This document shows, one piece after another, positions 2,235-31,163 of a DNA stretch of 44,382 nucleotides (positions within the stretch are counted from its first letter, which is position 1; the number at the start of each line of letters is the position of its first letter). The DNA lies in assembly GCA_902591865.1 (NCBI GenBank), contig CACJCK010000011.1, positions 1 through 44,382 on the forward strand. The letters are read 5' to 3'. Below the pieces are notes generated by a model. The model was not told where the DNA came from, did not search any database, and saw nothing but the letters and a program-made list of their open reading frames with translations. Source of the DNA: an uncultured Prochlorococcus sp. GTDB lineage: Bacteria > Cyanobacteriota > Cyanobacteriia > PCC-6307 > Cyanobiaceae. A program made the position numbers and the translations under genes.

Positions 2235-2320
2235 TGGGAGTGGGGGGACTTGAACCCCCACGAGCTAAATCGCTCGACGGATTTTAAGTCCGGCGCGTCT
2301 ACCAATTCCGCCACACTCCC
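2235..2320 (-). tRNA. tRNA-Leu (UAA anticodon)
   Basis: On the minus strand the gene reads GGGAGTG (acceptor 5'), a D-arm with TTGGTAGACGC, an anticodon loop CTTAAAA with anticodon TAA, a long class II variable arm (CGAGCGATTTAGCTCG), a T-arm GGGGG-TTCAAGT-CCCCC, and acceptor 3' CACTCCC. The discriminator A falls at 2235, followed directly by TTTT, so CCA is not encoded. The gene is uninterrupted: there is no group I intron in the anticodon loop, although tRNA-Leu(UAA) carries one in many cyanobacteria. A decayed partial copy lies at about 4469-4520. Confidence 0.97.
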
Positions 2321-2383
2321 AAAAGGAATTTGCGCTTTTTTATCGTAGCTGAAAGTAACCCATTTAACCAAGAAAAATGCGAA
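2267..2383. repeat. direct repeat copy 1: tRNA-Leu 5' part plus its upstream flank
   Basis: This stretch spans part of the variable arm, the anticodon arm, the D-arm and acceptor 5' side of tRNA-Leu and about 60 bp of its upstream flank. It is repeated in the same orientation at 4469-4588. Shared blocks include AAATCGCTC, TTTTAAGTCC, GTCTACCAATTCCG, CACACTCCC, AAGGAATTTGCG and CATTTAACCA. It marks one side of the 2.1 kb island. Confidence 0.85.
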
Positions 2384-2473
2384 TATTTACATTTTTTGGA
2401 GACCAATGGACGAGCTAGAAGTATTTTAAAATTGATAGATTAAAATCCACCTCTATAACCTAATTCTCGAAAT

Positions 2474-2499
2474 ATAAGGAGCAAGTAGCTCTTTTTTTT
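2474..2499 (+). repeat. hairpin/T-tract repeat, copy R1
   Basis: A short element: ATAAGGAGCAAGTAGCTC followed by eight T. GGAGC or GAGC pairs with GCTC around the loop AAGTA, giving a terminator-like shape on the plus strand. It lies against the 3' end of the minus-strand DUF3721 gene, whose stop codon it touches. It lacks the upstream TTGACA-like box of the other copies. It could be a terminator for plus-strand transcripts or a remnant of the family described at R2, R3 and R5. Confidence 0.6.
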
Positions 2500-2674
2500 A
2501 ATGGTTATGATCATGCATACTGCATGGCATCCATTTATCTCCCATTTGATGAGCGCCTTCACAGTCAAATTTATAAGCTTCTTTTTCAGCCTGTTCTTTT
2601 GTGTCAAATAACATTGGCATTTTCATTTCTTTTTCGACGGGTTTATTCGAACAACTTAACGAAAAAATTGACAT
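2498..2674 (-). CDS. DUF3721 family small protein
   Basis: 58 aa, ATG at 2674 to TAA at 2498. The C-terminal two thirds (MPMLFDTKEQAEKEAYKFDC, then CEGAHQMGDKWMPCSMH, ending HDHNH) is the typical DUF3721 pattern of marine picocyanobacteria: a Lys/Glu-rich helix, then Cys, GAH-x-M-G, and W-M-P-C near the C-terminus. The start region (MSIFSLSCSNKP) has a Cys suggestive of a lipoprotein signal. The frame stays open further upstream through a Phe-rich stretch without an ATG, so a longer signal peptide from a non-ATG start is possible. The two Cys residues and His-rich tail could bind metal; that is speculation. The function of the family is unknown. Confidence 0.75.
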   Translation of the reverse strand: MSIFSLSCSNKPVEKEMKMPMLFDTKEQAEKEAYKFDCEGAHQMGDKWMPCSMHDHNH

Positions 2675-2789
2675 GAAAAAAAAGGAAGAAAAGAAATAAA
2701 GTGTTTCAAAATTATTATTAAAATAAAGACAGCTTAGTATTAAATATCTTTCGAAATATTTAAAAAATTTATTTCTTTACATATATATT

Positions 2790-2836
2790 GATTGACATTC
2801 GAACTAAAATAAAGGGCAATTAGCTCCTTTTTTTCT
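2790..2836 (+). repeat. hairpin/T-tract repeat, copy R2, directly upstream of a GTG start
   Basis: The order is TTGACA (2792-2797), TCGAACTAAAATAAAGGGC, loop AATTA, GCTCC, then a T-tract. The element ends just before the GTG at 2837. The GGGC/GCTCC arms form a 4 bp stem. TAAAAT resembles a -10 box; TTGACA looks like a -35 box but sits too close to it for normal spacing. It is close to copy R5 across about 45 bp. Confidence 0.7.
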
Positions 2837-3100
2837 GTGCCTAATACATTAGTTATTTCGTCCTTTGGTTGTACTTTTTCTGAATTTGAAATGATGGTAA
2901 AAAAAGTTGATAAAGAACAAGGATATGTTTTTTGTTCTGAGTTGGAGATTGTAAAAGTAAATGAACATAAAGCAATGATTCTTATGAACTGTTCTGATTT
3001 AGAAAAGTTTGGTGCAATGCTTGAACAACCAGAATTAAAACAATGGGATATTGATAATAACTGTGTAGATACTGTTTATAATCTTGAACTTGTTGAGTAA
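2837..3100 (+). CDS. DUF3764-like small protein
   Basis: 87 aa with a GTG start at 2837, directly after repeat R2. No ribosome binding site is visible between the T-tract and the start. The protein is soluble with no signal peptide. It shows an N-terminal beta strand (NTLVISSFGCTFSEFE), a helix, and a second half ILMNCSDLEKFGAMLEQPEL followed by DTVYNLELVE. That pattern fits the compact alpha/beta barrel-like DUF3764 family of marine picocyanobacteria, though I recognise it only by overall pattern. The function is unknown. It is an island gene followed after 3 bp by repeat R3. Confidence 0.55.
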   Translation: MPNTLVISSFGCTFSEFEMMVKKVDKEQGYVFCSELEIVKVNEHKAMILMNCSDLEKFGAMLEQPELKQWDIDNNCVDTVYNLELVE

Positions 3101-3103
3101 ATG

Positions 3104-3181
3104 GAAATGCTTACTACTTGCACCGCTAATACTTACTAATTGACAGTTGATATAAAATAAGGGGCAATTAAGTCATTTTTT
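3104..3181 (+). repeat. long form of hairpin/T-tract repeat, copy R3
   Basis: Bases 3104-3170 match 4251-4317 at 57 of 67 positions by my hand alignment. The long form holds TTGCACCGC and two TTACTA-TTG half-repeats, then a TAAAATAAGGGGCAATTA core. The right arm of the hairpin is degenerate here (AAGTCA rather than AGCTCC), so the stem is lost, but the T-tract and the adjacent ATG at 3183 remain. It lies between the end of the DUF3764-like gene and the DUF6447 gene. Confidence 0.75.
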
Positions 3182-3182
3182 A

Positions 3183-3527
3183 ATGAAAAAAATCCTCAAC
3201 AATTTCTTTAGGAAAAAAGATATTCCTAACGATGAAGCAATATCTGATTTCAAAACAAAGCAGAATACGGATAAGGAATACGTAAAAGCAAAGGATAAGG
3301 AAAAAGTTGAGGGAAAATCTCAACAGAAATTAATATTCGATAATTCCGAATACCTTTTTGATGAGCTTCCCTCTGAAGCTAAAAAATTGATAATGGGATT
3401 GAAAACAGCAGCCTCTCAGACAAAGATTTATGAAGATAAAATTAAATTAATAACTATAAGTAAAAATAAAATGATTACGGATCTTAAAAATATTGTGGAT
3501 AATTTAGAACTAATTGAAAAAAAATAA
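3183..3527 (+). CDS. DUF6447-like protein
   Basis: 114 aa, ATG at 3183 directly after the R3 T-tract. The N-terminal 45 residues are charged and probably disordered (KDKEKVEGKSQQK). The C-terminal part (DNSEYLFDELPSEAKKLIMG, then LKTAASQTKIYEDKIKLI, then MITDLKNIVDNL) has the DUF6447 pattern: a short strand or tyrosine motif, L-S/P-x-E-A-K, then two long amphipathic helices likely to form a coiled-coil hairpin. The function is unknown; the family is common in marine picocyanobacteria and their phages. Here it carries a longer N-terminus than the ~70-90 aa family members I know. Confidence 0.6.
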   Translation: MKKILNNFFRKKDIPNDEAISDFKTKQNTDKEYVKAKDKEKVEGKSQQKLIFDNSEYLFDELPSEAKKLIMGLKTAASQTKIYEDKIKLITISKNKMITDLKNIVDNLELIEKK

Positions 3528-3670
3528 TCCCATTTTATTTCTATCTTTTTGAAAAAACTATCTTTACTATCAATTAAAAATTTTTGTTTTACACTTGGAT
3601 TAGAATTTTAACTGCATTTATACATTCTATTTTTCATCATATATTTTTAATACATGACAAAATGTAATTA

Positions 3671-4240
3671 ATGAAAGACTTACTACTCCCATTACTAGTT
3701 TTATTCGCTTTACCTACCGCTCTTAATGCTGGAATATCTGATGAATTTCATAAGAAATGTTTAGAAGCGCGAGATTATGCAGGTTGCGTGAATACTAATA
3801 AGAAATTTTCTCGCAAAAAAAATAAAGAAATATCTGGGATAGGAATAAGTCTTTTTCTTAATAGTGATACTGCTGAATTAACTATTCAATCTGTAATAAA
3901 TGACTCTCCTGCCGCTTCCGCTGACATTCAACCAAATGATGTAATTATCAAAATAGATGGGAAATCAACTAAAGGAATGGGGATAAGAGAGGCTGTTTCT
4001 CTCATAAAAGGACCAATAGATAAGCCAATCAAATTAGTATTATTAAGAGTTAATGAGTCAGATAAAAAGAAAAAAATAAATGTTCGATTAATAAGAGATA
4101 CTTTTAAAGTACCTAACAAAGAATATTTATATGAAGGAGATATGAGTAGGCAATTAGAGTTTTTCTTTCCAGAAAATTTAAAAGATATTTTTCAAGAAAA
4201 TGAACTTTCCCCAAATCAAAAAAAAGGCTCTTCAATTTAA
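3671..4240 (+). CDS. secreted PDZ-domain protein
   Basis: 189 aa. An N-terminal signal peptide (MKDLLLPLLVLFALPTALNA, cleavage after LNA near residue 20) is followed by a mature region with a PDZ domain at about residues 54-140. The domain includes ISGIGISLFL, the ligand groove, INDSPAASADIQPNDVIIKI, DGKSTKGMGIREAVSLIKG, and LVLLRV. It resembles the PDZ of carboxyl-terminal processing proteases, but there is no serine protease domain after it. The likely site is periplasm or thylakoid lumen, as a peptide-binding adaptor. Its signal peptide is nearly the same as that of the gene at 30653-30982, though the mature parts are unrelated. No repeat element sits upstream of its start. Confidence 0.8.
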   Translation: MKDLLLPLLVLFALPTALNAGISDEFHKKCLEARDYAGCVNTNKKFSRKKNKEISGIGISLFLNSDTAELTIQSVINDSPAASADIQPNDVIIKIDGKSTKGMGIREAVSLIKGPIDKPIKLVLLRVNESDKKKKINVRLIRDTFKVPNKEYLYEGDMSRQLEFFFPENLKDIFQENELSPNQKKGSSI

Positions 4241-4250
4241 ATCTCTGAAT

Positions 4251-4330
4251 GAAACGCTTACTAGTTGCACCGCAAATAGTTACTAGTTGATAGTCGATCT
4301 AAAGTAAGGGGCAAGTAGCTCTTTTTTTTT
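4251..4330 (+). repeat. long form of hairpin/T-tract repeat, copy R4
   Basis: This is the partner of R3 (57 of 67 bases identical over the long part), followed by GGGGC-AAGTA-GCTCT and a run of nine T. It starts 11 bp after the PDZ gene stop. No gene follows it: only a 15-codon frame from 4355. It is therefore either an orphan leader whose gene has been lost, or a terminator for the PDZ gene. Confidence 0.75.
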
Positions 4331-4468: not shown

Positions 4469-4588
4469 AAATCGCTCTTGTTTTTAAGTCCAGCGTGTCT
4501 ACCAATTCCGTCACACTCCCATAAGGAATTTGCGTTTTTTATAGTAGCTGAAGTATATCATTTAACCAAAATTGGAATATTTACACTT
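4469..4588 (-). pseudogene. tRNA-Leu 5'-part remnant with duplicated upstream flank
   Basis: This is a direct repeat of 2267-2383. On the minus strand it keeps the acceptor 5' side, D-arm, anticodon arm and a piece of the variable arm. The T-arm and acceptor 3' side are absent, so it cannot fold as a tRNA. Within the tRNA part I count three substitutions in the well-aligned stretch (4485-4520) and all are GC-to-AT transitions, as expected for decay in an AT-biased genome. About 65 bp of the tRNA's upstream flank is also duplicated (4521-4588). Confidence 0.85.
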
Positions 4589-4613
4589 TTAATTGTCAGA
4601 TTAAATCTATTTT

Positions 4614-30652: not shown

Positions 30653-30982
30653 TCATCTATCTCTGTAAATCTTTTGCAGTTTTTTTGGATCACTCCATTC
30701 AAGACTATCTGTATTACTTTTATAAGTTCCACGCCATTTTTTATAAATGCTTGGAGTCCTAAAGTTGTGATAGGTTTCGATCCTATCTTTCCAAGAAGCG
30801 CGACACCTCTTTACATCATTAAAATTGACTGCATCTAAAGCAGCTTTAAACCCGTAACCACTCCTCCAATAAGATACAACTTTAGATATATTTTCTTCTG
30901 CACATCCAAAAATTCCCCAATCAGCATTAACAGCAGTAGGTAAAGCTAGAGCAGCTAATAAGGGTATTAAAAATCTCTTCAC
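30653..30982 (-). CDS. small secreted protein of unknown function with R5 leader
   Basis: 109 aa, GTG start at 30982 directly after the R5 hairpin/T-tract. The signal peptide MKRFLIPLLAALALPTAVNA is cleaved after VNA. The mature region is ~89 aa, basic, with Cys in IFGCAEEN and VKRCRASW, and Trp/Tyr-rich (YWRSGYGF, YKKWRGTY). I do not recognise the family. Only 61 bp separate it from the next secreted-protein gene on the same strand, so the two may be co-transcribed. Together they sit between chlL and por. Confidence 0.7.
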   Translation of the reverse strand: MKRFLIPLLAALALPTAVNADWGIFGCAEENISKVVSYWRSGYGFKAALDAVNFNDVKRCRASWKDRIETYHNFRTPSIYKKWRGTYKSNTDSLEWSDPKKLQKIYRDR

Positions 30983-31027
30983 AAAAAAAGAAGCTAATTT
31001 CCCCTTATTTTAGATCGAATGTCAATC
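30983..31027 (-). repeat. hairpin/T-tract repeat, copy R5, directly upstream of a GTG start
   Basis: On the minus strand it reads TTGACATTCGATC, TAAAAT, AAGGGGAAATTAGCTTC, then seven T and the GTG at 30982. It nearly matches R2 of the island, 28 kb away. GGGG/CTTC form only a weak stem here. It lies between the por stop and the secreted-protein start, so it could end por transcripts as well as begin the next. Confidence 0.7.
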
Positions 31028-31163
31028 TTTAATAAACATAAAAATTTTCTTTACCCTTTGTTAAAGAAGTTTTTGCAGCATTTTATAAAATTATTTTAAA
31101 TAATCGAAATAGCAGTGATACCAATAGTTTTAGCAACAACCATATGGGTATAGTTAATCTTAA

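Follow-up and report, generated by a model that had tools for sequence, protein, structure and literature searches.

Much of the gene content in which Prochlorococcus strains differ lies in genomic islands, and how single small genes enter and leave such compact genomes is unsettled. The closest known kind of element to the one described here, judging from the part of the source available, is found in T4-like phages: the promoter early stem-loop (PeSL), in which promoter and terminator form one motif and which is said to mediate gene shuffling (PMC4503421). We analysed a stretch of 44,382 nucleotides (nt) from an uncultured Prochlorococcus sp. (contig CACJCK010000011.1; hereafter the window), in which a short repeated element, consisting of a dyad, a −10-like box, a hairpin and a T-tract, occurs in five copies (R1–R5). 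We think it somewhat probable, from its sequence and its distribution, that the element is a composite promoter-terminator standing at the junctions of single-gene cassettes in hypervariable islands of high-light Prochlorococcus, and that it probably both punctuates the island gene sets and helps to rearrange them.

The likeness to PeSLs, within the part of that account available, lies in the predicted composite promoter-terminator make-up and in the shuffling of genes, the activity of the present element being read from sequence and fold. The element differs in that it sits in the bacterial chromosomes of one genus and not in T4-like phage genomes, that its hairpin borders on the next start codon and takes in the predicted transcription start site, and that a dyad precedes the −10 box. 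The studies of PeSLs are reportedly those of Arbiol in 2010 and Comeau in 2014. A short repeat in island 5 of Prochlorococcus MED4 was reportedly described by Coleman in 2006, as a 48-bp element called PRE1. It agrees with our element in genus, island location and length (45 nt plus a start codon make 48), and our repeat may be the one reported for that island.

Tycheposons, the third comparison, are Prochlorococcus islands that sit at tRNA genes, vary in cargo and carry a tyrosine recombinase, according to the part of the account available (PMC10872708). To that extent they resemble the present islands, since a tRNA gene (tRNA-Leu, with a degenerate duplicate of its 5′ half) marks an island end in the window and such genes occur in 7 of the 21 stretches mapped; they differ in that our element is a gene-to-gene junction, and no recombinase was found among the four open reading frames (ORFs) scanned in the window island (2.3–4.5 kb). 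In the literature searched, as far as its sources were accessible, there is no account of the promoter-terminator structure, the second hairpin type or the exchange of flanks, and the sequence words of the element are not printed there. What is new here is the independent shuffling of both flanks together with presence or absence of one cassette, the sister hairpin type, and the bias towards co-directional upstream genes. If our reading is true, a junction that gives promoter, protection from read-through and homology for exchange would explain both mosaic gene order and the expression of new genes, and a strategy of T4-like phages would operate in a host chromosome.

A genus-wide family at gene edges

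The five copies were found where the preliminary description of this DNA had placed them. With up to 3 mismatches allowed, the window contains the hairpin core exactly 5 times, where 0.51 occurrences would be expected, and none of 100 shuffles reached 5. A 45-position matrix gave scores of 67 for R2, 50 for R3, 56 for R4 and 65 for R5, and below 8 for R1; the reversed window, used as a control, had zero matches scoring 5 or more. Sequence comparison places R1–R5 in a genus-wide Prochlorococcus family. The window's own genome (72% complete) holds 15 core copies with up to 3 mismatches (control 0). The element was present in 24 of 25 genus genomes and in 0 of 15 outside the genus in a search of 40 genomes (controls 0), in 100 of 116 genus genomes in a larger search (controls 0), and, in a third, in 11 of 13 genus genomes, whereas all 138 genomes from the family's other genera lacked it; the pattern read backwards had zero matches in the genome searches. 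A scan of named genomes returned at least 118 stretches, 74 of 80 among the matches listed being labelled Prochlorococcus. With 309 matches at score 12 (overlapping loci included) and 0 in reversed sequence, the 45-nt matrix is a searchable marker for cassette boundaries. Viral carriage was seen in one IMG/VR contig by exact pattern (L156) and in one by protein, and 50,697 phage records gave no credible match, the matches listed (20 of 45) having E values of 0.02 or above and query coverage of at most 79%.

Most counts below come from 195 copies (150 distinct sequences) with 700 bp on both sides, and ORFs were called mechanically (at least 45 or at least 60 amino acids (aa)), not as curated genes. 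Five non-cyanobacterial loci were removed before flank clustering and later counts, two lacking the promoter half (L061, L070) and three excluded by organism (L089, L102, L107).

The overall layout is GATTGACAGTCGATC-TAAAAT-AAGGGGC-AATTA-GCTCC-T6+, then usually ATG, and the consensus of the 195 copies reads TGATTGACAGTCGATC TAAAAT AAGGGGC AATTA GCTCC TTTTTT. The consensus given in the preliminary description holds in part: the family form is TTGACAGTCGATC, and the form TTGACATTC of R2 and R5 is a minority variant, the T occurring in 22 of the 150 distinct copies. The dyad has two 7-base arms around 1 base (GATTGAC-A-GTCGATC), abuts the −10 box and, by its sequence, is likely to be an operator; its 7-1-7 geometry (for example at window 2790–2804) presumably recalls Fur/PerR/Zur boxes. 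The box itself, TAAAAT or TACAAT, keeps bases 1, 2 and 6 in nearly all copies while base 3 varies, and agrees with the TANNNT hexamer of bacterial promoters. The hairpin starts 0–2 nt after the box and is followed by a tract of 6–9 T, which gives the GC-rich hairpin and U-tract of an intrinsic terminator, weak in R3 and R5. Each position of the loop AATTA is kept in 90–99% of copies, and of the 22 matrix positions before the hairpin, 15 exceed 85% conservation in these matrix-selected copies.

The hairpin of this consensus (type A) is not the only one. In type B, which is frequent upstream of the DUF3804 gene, the same promoter half is followed by another hairpin, AGAGGG-ATAAAA-CCCTCT, a T-tract and a start codon. 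Type C is variable, resembles AAGGG-TTACGT-CCCTT, and stands before a relative of DUF3804 in 11 loci with similar upstream sequence (L294–L304). All fetched DNA held 161 type A sites and 61 others, which a rough filter sorted into 39 B-like, 5 type C, 8 variants of A and 9 other, mostly unrelated or unclear. The B-like sites (35 distinct segments) had a stem score of 9.90 against 4.66 for shuffled sequence, 31 of 39 beating their own shuffles; for type C the scores were 8.20 and 4.64, with 5 of 5 beating theirs. The fold energies of types A, B and C are −8.7, −8.5 and −7.3 kcal/mol, and that of the leader from the loop start is 0. The distance from the −10 box to the start codon has its mode at 24 nt in type A and in the other types alike. 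Hairpins that differ in sequence while keeping the same distance to −10 box and start codon are a sign of selection on structure.

A search of the consensus over Prochlorococcus with distances to start and stop codons, as the preliminary description had advised, placed the element at gene edges. In 116 of the 195 copies a start codon is found at −1 to +4 nt relative to the end of T6, and the stop codons of upstream sense ORFs lie −7 to +8 nt from the element in 73 of 129. The downstream ORF is sense in 162 copies, antisense in 23 and missing in 10; 15 of the 23 antisense ORFs have their stop codon at −3 to 0, abutting the T-tract. The upstream neighbour is co-directional in 129 of 151 cases, which, together with these antisense stops, fits the role of a terminator or boundary. 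Neighbouring copies less than 1 kb apart are direct in 39 cases, divergent in 11 and convergent in none. When sites of hairpin plus T-tract were compared, elements were start-adjacent in 101 of 149 and others in 35 of 258, a split made by a rough text filter that possibly leaves decayed elements among the 258. As a general feature, the combination of hairpin, T-tract and start codon was rejected: in the genome G066, of 72 intergenic sites that are not elements, 8 adjoin a start codon, where shifting gives an expectation of 1.4, and these 8 are mostly weak, one being a decayed element.

It is improbable that the element is a terminator alone, copied between genes, with a −10-like box that is incidental AT-rich sequence. 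The hairpin with its U-tract and the co-directional upstream genes would suit such an origin, but it does not account for the conservation upstream of the hairpin, for the same promoter half before different hairpins, or for the 116 copies that end at a start codon. Moreover, 16 of these 116 start-adjacent copies follow an ORF pointing away from them, and there a promoter would be needed.

Placement was also followed through single cassette genes. For the DUF3764 cassette gene, 17 of the 19 copies whose start was recognised have the element just ahead of it (15 by score; the elements of L222 and L224 have one extra base), and the DUF3804 gene has a type A element upstream, by score, in 3 of 25. 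The idea that the leader is ancestral to DUF3764 was rejected, as a core paralogue (11 loci) and 19 further loci (2 of the genus, 17 of other genera) are without the element; a T-run is found in 3 of these 19. Many of the cassette products in L187–L206 are small proteins, DUF3764, DUF3303, DUF1330, ABM, DsrE, DUF3804, cupin and plastocyanin-like proteins. Several of these families are dimeric ferredoxin-like barrels, which we take as only a possible hint of a shared kind of task.

Exchange of flanking genes

By comparison of loci, both flanks of the element have been exchanged independently. Clustering of 176 copies gave 82 groups for the upstream and 59 for the downstream DNA; a single downstream gene, in 29 copies, is combined with 19 upstream groups, and a single upstream sequence, in 15 copies, with 14 downstream groups. 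Pairs that share only their downstream side lose identity left of the element, those that share only their upstream side lose it right after the T-tract, and flank identity drops to background at the element edges. Downstream DNA is at least 97% identical and upstream DNA unrelated in 71 pairs (49 copies), and the converse holds for 18 pairs (21 copies), the pairs in either set not being independent of one another. In L050, L060, L082 and L143, 99% identity over 250 upstream bases plus GATTGACAGTCGATCTA is followed by four hairpins and three downstream sequences.

Single cassettes can also be present or absent. L204 has the order F23, element, DUF3764 gene, element, F1, whereas in L205 and L193 a single element separates F23 from F1; the aligned sequences diverge at the elements, and the junction is of type A in L204 and type B in L205. 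A second case, F18-[F19]-F32, was seen on maps, and of seven such patterns one was checked on DNA and one on maps. As in PeSLs, copies of the element thus appear, on this comparative evidence, to recombine and shuffle modules.

These patterns make it most improbable that the element is a MITE-like miniature transposon (miniature inverted-repeat transposable element) with a promoter, inserting ahead of genes. It is indeed a dispersed short palindromic repeat on unrelated genes, but the genes travel with it and both flanks shuffle. In addition, in a protein-based search the DUF3303 gene kept the element exactly 4 nt past its stop codon in 21 of 26 measurable copies (3 being decayed and 2 without it), as if inherited.

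We favour exchange by homologous recombination as the main agent: because the junctions share about 45 bp, recombination between copies would swap, add and remove cassettes, and each cassette would arrive with its own start and stop signals. The likeness to integron cassettes, which likewise consist of small single genes arrayed head to tail, with a common junction between them and precise gain and loss, nevertheless raises the alternative of a site-specific recombination site of integron or tycheposon type, served by a tyrosine recombinase that recognises the dyad half as part of its site. We consider this quite unlikely, although some loci do carry a tyrosine recombinase gene directly before the junction. 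In the own genome a gene for a 427-aa tyrosine-recombinase-like protein (PF00589, E = 2.8e-5, below the curated cut-off), at L189:4615–5943 on contig C9 and not on the window's contig, has a stop codon that abuts an element. Among the best 30 loci of this protein family (L405–L434, several of them near-identical), a full element lies within 400 nt downstream in 5, within 60 nt in 3 of these. By eye, 8 more have a partial or variant copy at the stop codon, namely L415 (type B), L433 (one-base gap) and, with the promoter half only, L410–L413, L420 and L429, L410–L412 being the same sequence.

The 427-aa protein is matched in 32 of 61 genus genomes. The remaining 29 have no match, and these include single-contig genomes that bear elements, for example G015 and G058; in this the system differs from integrons, with the limit that IntI itself was not searched for. 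In a family search, 3 of 16 genus genomes had a strong tyrosine recombinase match (above 80 bits), a lower bound since the search missed the weaker match in the own genome; all 16 have elements. The attC-type core GTTRRRY is absent from both strands of the element's consensus, and the exchanges fit no single crossover position. A second weak recombinase-like protein, mostly of about 390 aa, occurs in 13 of the 16 genus genomes (for example at G015:C1:495095-495520) and is possibly a core recombinase.

Predicted transcription from the element

If the element is a composite promoter-terminator, the RNA of an upstream gene would contain the whole hairpin and U-tract and would terminate. A −10 box sets the start of transcription about 7 nt downstream, and the element's own promoter would start RNA about 7–8 nt past the box, at the edge of the hairpin loop. 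In types A, B and C alike this is where the 5′ arm passes into the loop, so the element's own RNA would probably be without the 5′ arm and would escape termination. Its leader would be 17–18 nt long, unstructured and pyrimidine-rich, would end in the U-tract, and would suit Shine-Dalgarno-independent initiation, with the next start codon usually about 24 nt past the −10 box. Composite action of this kind predicts positions of 5′ and 3′ ends that are checkable in maps of MED4-type strains.

The preliminary description had instead proposed a mobile 5′ leader: transcription would begin at the G run, and the hairpin at the 5′ end of the RNA would be an attenuator or translation enhancer. In a wider form of this view the hairpin might also stabilise the mRNA, the U-tract being an S1 site. 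Parts of this proposal survive: the element is dispersed among unrelated small genes, has a −10-like box and tends to be start-adjacent in the comparison of hairpin sites above. The proposed start at the G run is not supported, as the start predicted 7–8 bases past the −10 box lies at the boundary of arm and loop. A start at the G run would lie 3–6 nt past the −10 box, and the usual distance exceeds this. We regard the mobile leader as a whole as rather unlikely. Hairpin and T-tract do abut the start codon with three different hairpin sequences, just 8 of 72 other intergenic sites in G066 do the same, and pyrimidine-rich tracts ahead of start codons, with S1-type initiation, have been proposed for MED4, in the part of the source available (PMC5607370). 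A leader, however, would be needless where the stops of antisense neighbours abut the T-tract, and the upstream genes are mostly co-directional. The leader and the terminator that the preliminary description had set against each other seem best combined, each being right in part; the shuffling of both flanks it had missed.

Several observations weigh against a composite promoter-terminator exchanged by homologous recombination. For the promoter, no −35 box was found at the usual spacing, and copies that face an antisense gene have a promoter half as good as that of the others. A genome-wide scan for TANAAT gave no peak at 24 nt, a scan that we judge uninformative. For the terminator, R3 and R5 fold poorly (−1.5 and −2.6), and altered pairs of the type A stem (the G-U site excluded) broke pairing in 100 cases and kept it in 45. 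The altered pairs of the dyad likewise broke symmetry in 174 cases and kept it in 57, and general covariation is not seen in either. One dyad pair does covary (C..G to A..T; Fisher p = 1e-9 with copies whose two flanks had both been seen before removed), limited to few gene contexts. A relaxation of the hairpin behind divergent genes, with a raw p of 0.003, was rejected, being lost once related copies were collapsed (p = 0.30, 0.39 and 0.14).

Placement is less strict than the totals suggest. In G066 (complete, 1.6 Mb) the matrix finds 12 elements, of which 6 pass the scan for hairpin plus T-tract and 2 of these 6 are start-adjacent (to ORFs of 60 aa or more), so that placement at start codons is a trend with exceptions. 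The excess of co-directional upstream genes is measured against 463 of 1,031 genes (45%) in G066, a baseline of one genome for copies from the islands of many, and the choice of copies by matrix or pattern inflates conservation, so that the conservation figures are upper estimates. As regards exchange, no single crossover position fits all cases, the best fitting 73 of 89 pairs and then 2 of the 18 pairs with shared upstream DNA, in a test that could be blurred by later point mutations; variants within the element that are linked to one flank showed no clear switch point. Finally, some loci have recombinase-like genes whose end adjoins the element or its dyad half, which would mean either that recombinases are among the cassettes or that the dyad half is their substrate, and a dedicated enzyme is possible.

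Taken together, the separate parts would make up a native cassette system of a free-living bacterium that works, in most genomes, with no dedicated recombinase. Its 45-bp junction would have the transcription start inside the preceding terminator hairpin, one sequence stopping the upstream RNA and starting the next, and would serve as portable homology, while the shared dyad would put all cassettes under one regulator. We put this joint proposal forward tentatively, as possible but doubtful.

The window copies and their island

The preliminary description had noted that the T-tract ends within two bases of a start codon in R2, R3 and R5, and this proved correct at all three. R2 is a full element on the forward strand (2789–2834), with dyad, −10 box, hairpin and T7; its T-run (2828–2834) is followed after 2 nt by the GTG at 2837 of a gene of family F1 (2837–3100, forward; 87 aa), for which there was no Pfam match at E 0.01. 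R3 (3137–3181, forward) has a decayed 3′ arm of the hairpin, to which its minimum free energy of −1.5 refers, and its T-run (3176–3181) ends 1 nt before the ATG at 3183 of a DUF6447 gene (3183–3527, forward; 114 aa). R5, a full element on the reverse strand (30983–31028), runs with its T-run straight into the GTG at 30982 of a gene for a 109-aa, signal-peptide-like protein (30653–30982, reverse), and is probably kept vertically in a related genome, where L017 has the same hairpin variant and similar flanks.

R1 is a half copy (2474–2500, forward) in which the hairpin GGAGC-AAGTA-GCTCT and a T8 remain and the promoter half has decayed. The TAA stop of an antisense DUF3721 gene (2498–2674, reverse; 58 aa) overlaps its T-tract, an arrangement (family F30) that was counted 8 times in related loci, overlapping loci included. 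R4 (4284–4330, forward) is a full element with T9 and without an adjacent start codon, and between R3 and R4 lies a gene for a 189-aa PDZ-domain protein with a signal-peptide-like N-terminus (3671–4240, forward).

The small island that contains R1–R4 is bounded on one side by tRNA-Leu (2234–2321, reverse), tRNA being the sole Rfam family matched in the window at the gathering score. The other boundary (4469–4590, strand not assigned) is a degenerate, 83% identical duplicate of window 2267–2396, which covers the 5′ half of tRNA-Leu with the DNA upstream of it. A 5′ duplication is unusual, since it is as a rule the 3′ end of a tRNA gene that integrases duplicate. A further conserved stretch, like ATGAAACGCTTACTACTTGCACCGCTAATAGTTAGTAATTGA, precedes many copies; it is a signal-peptide-like start of 13 codons whose closing TGA overlaps the element. 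It may encode a peptide or represent the truncated start of a gene, occurs in related loci too (the upstream cluster of 15 copies), and is present in the window in decayed form at 3101–3140 and 4247–4287.

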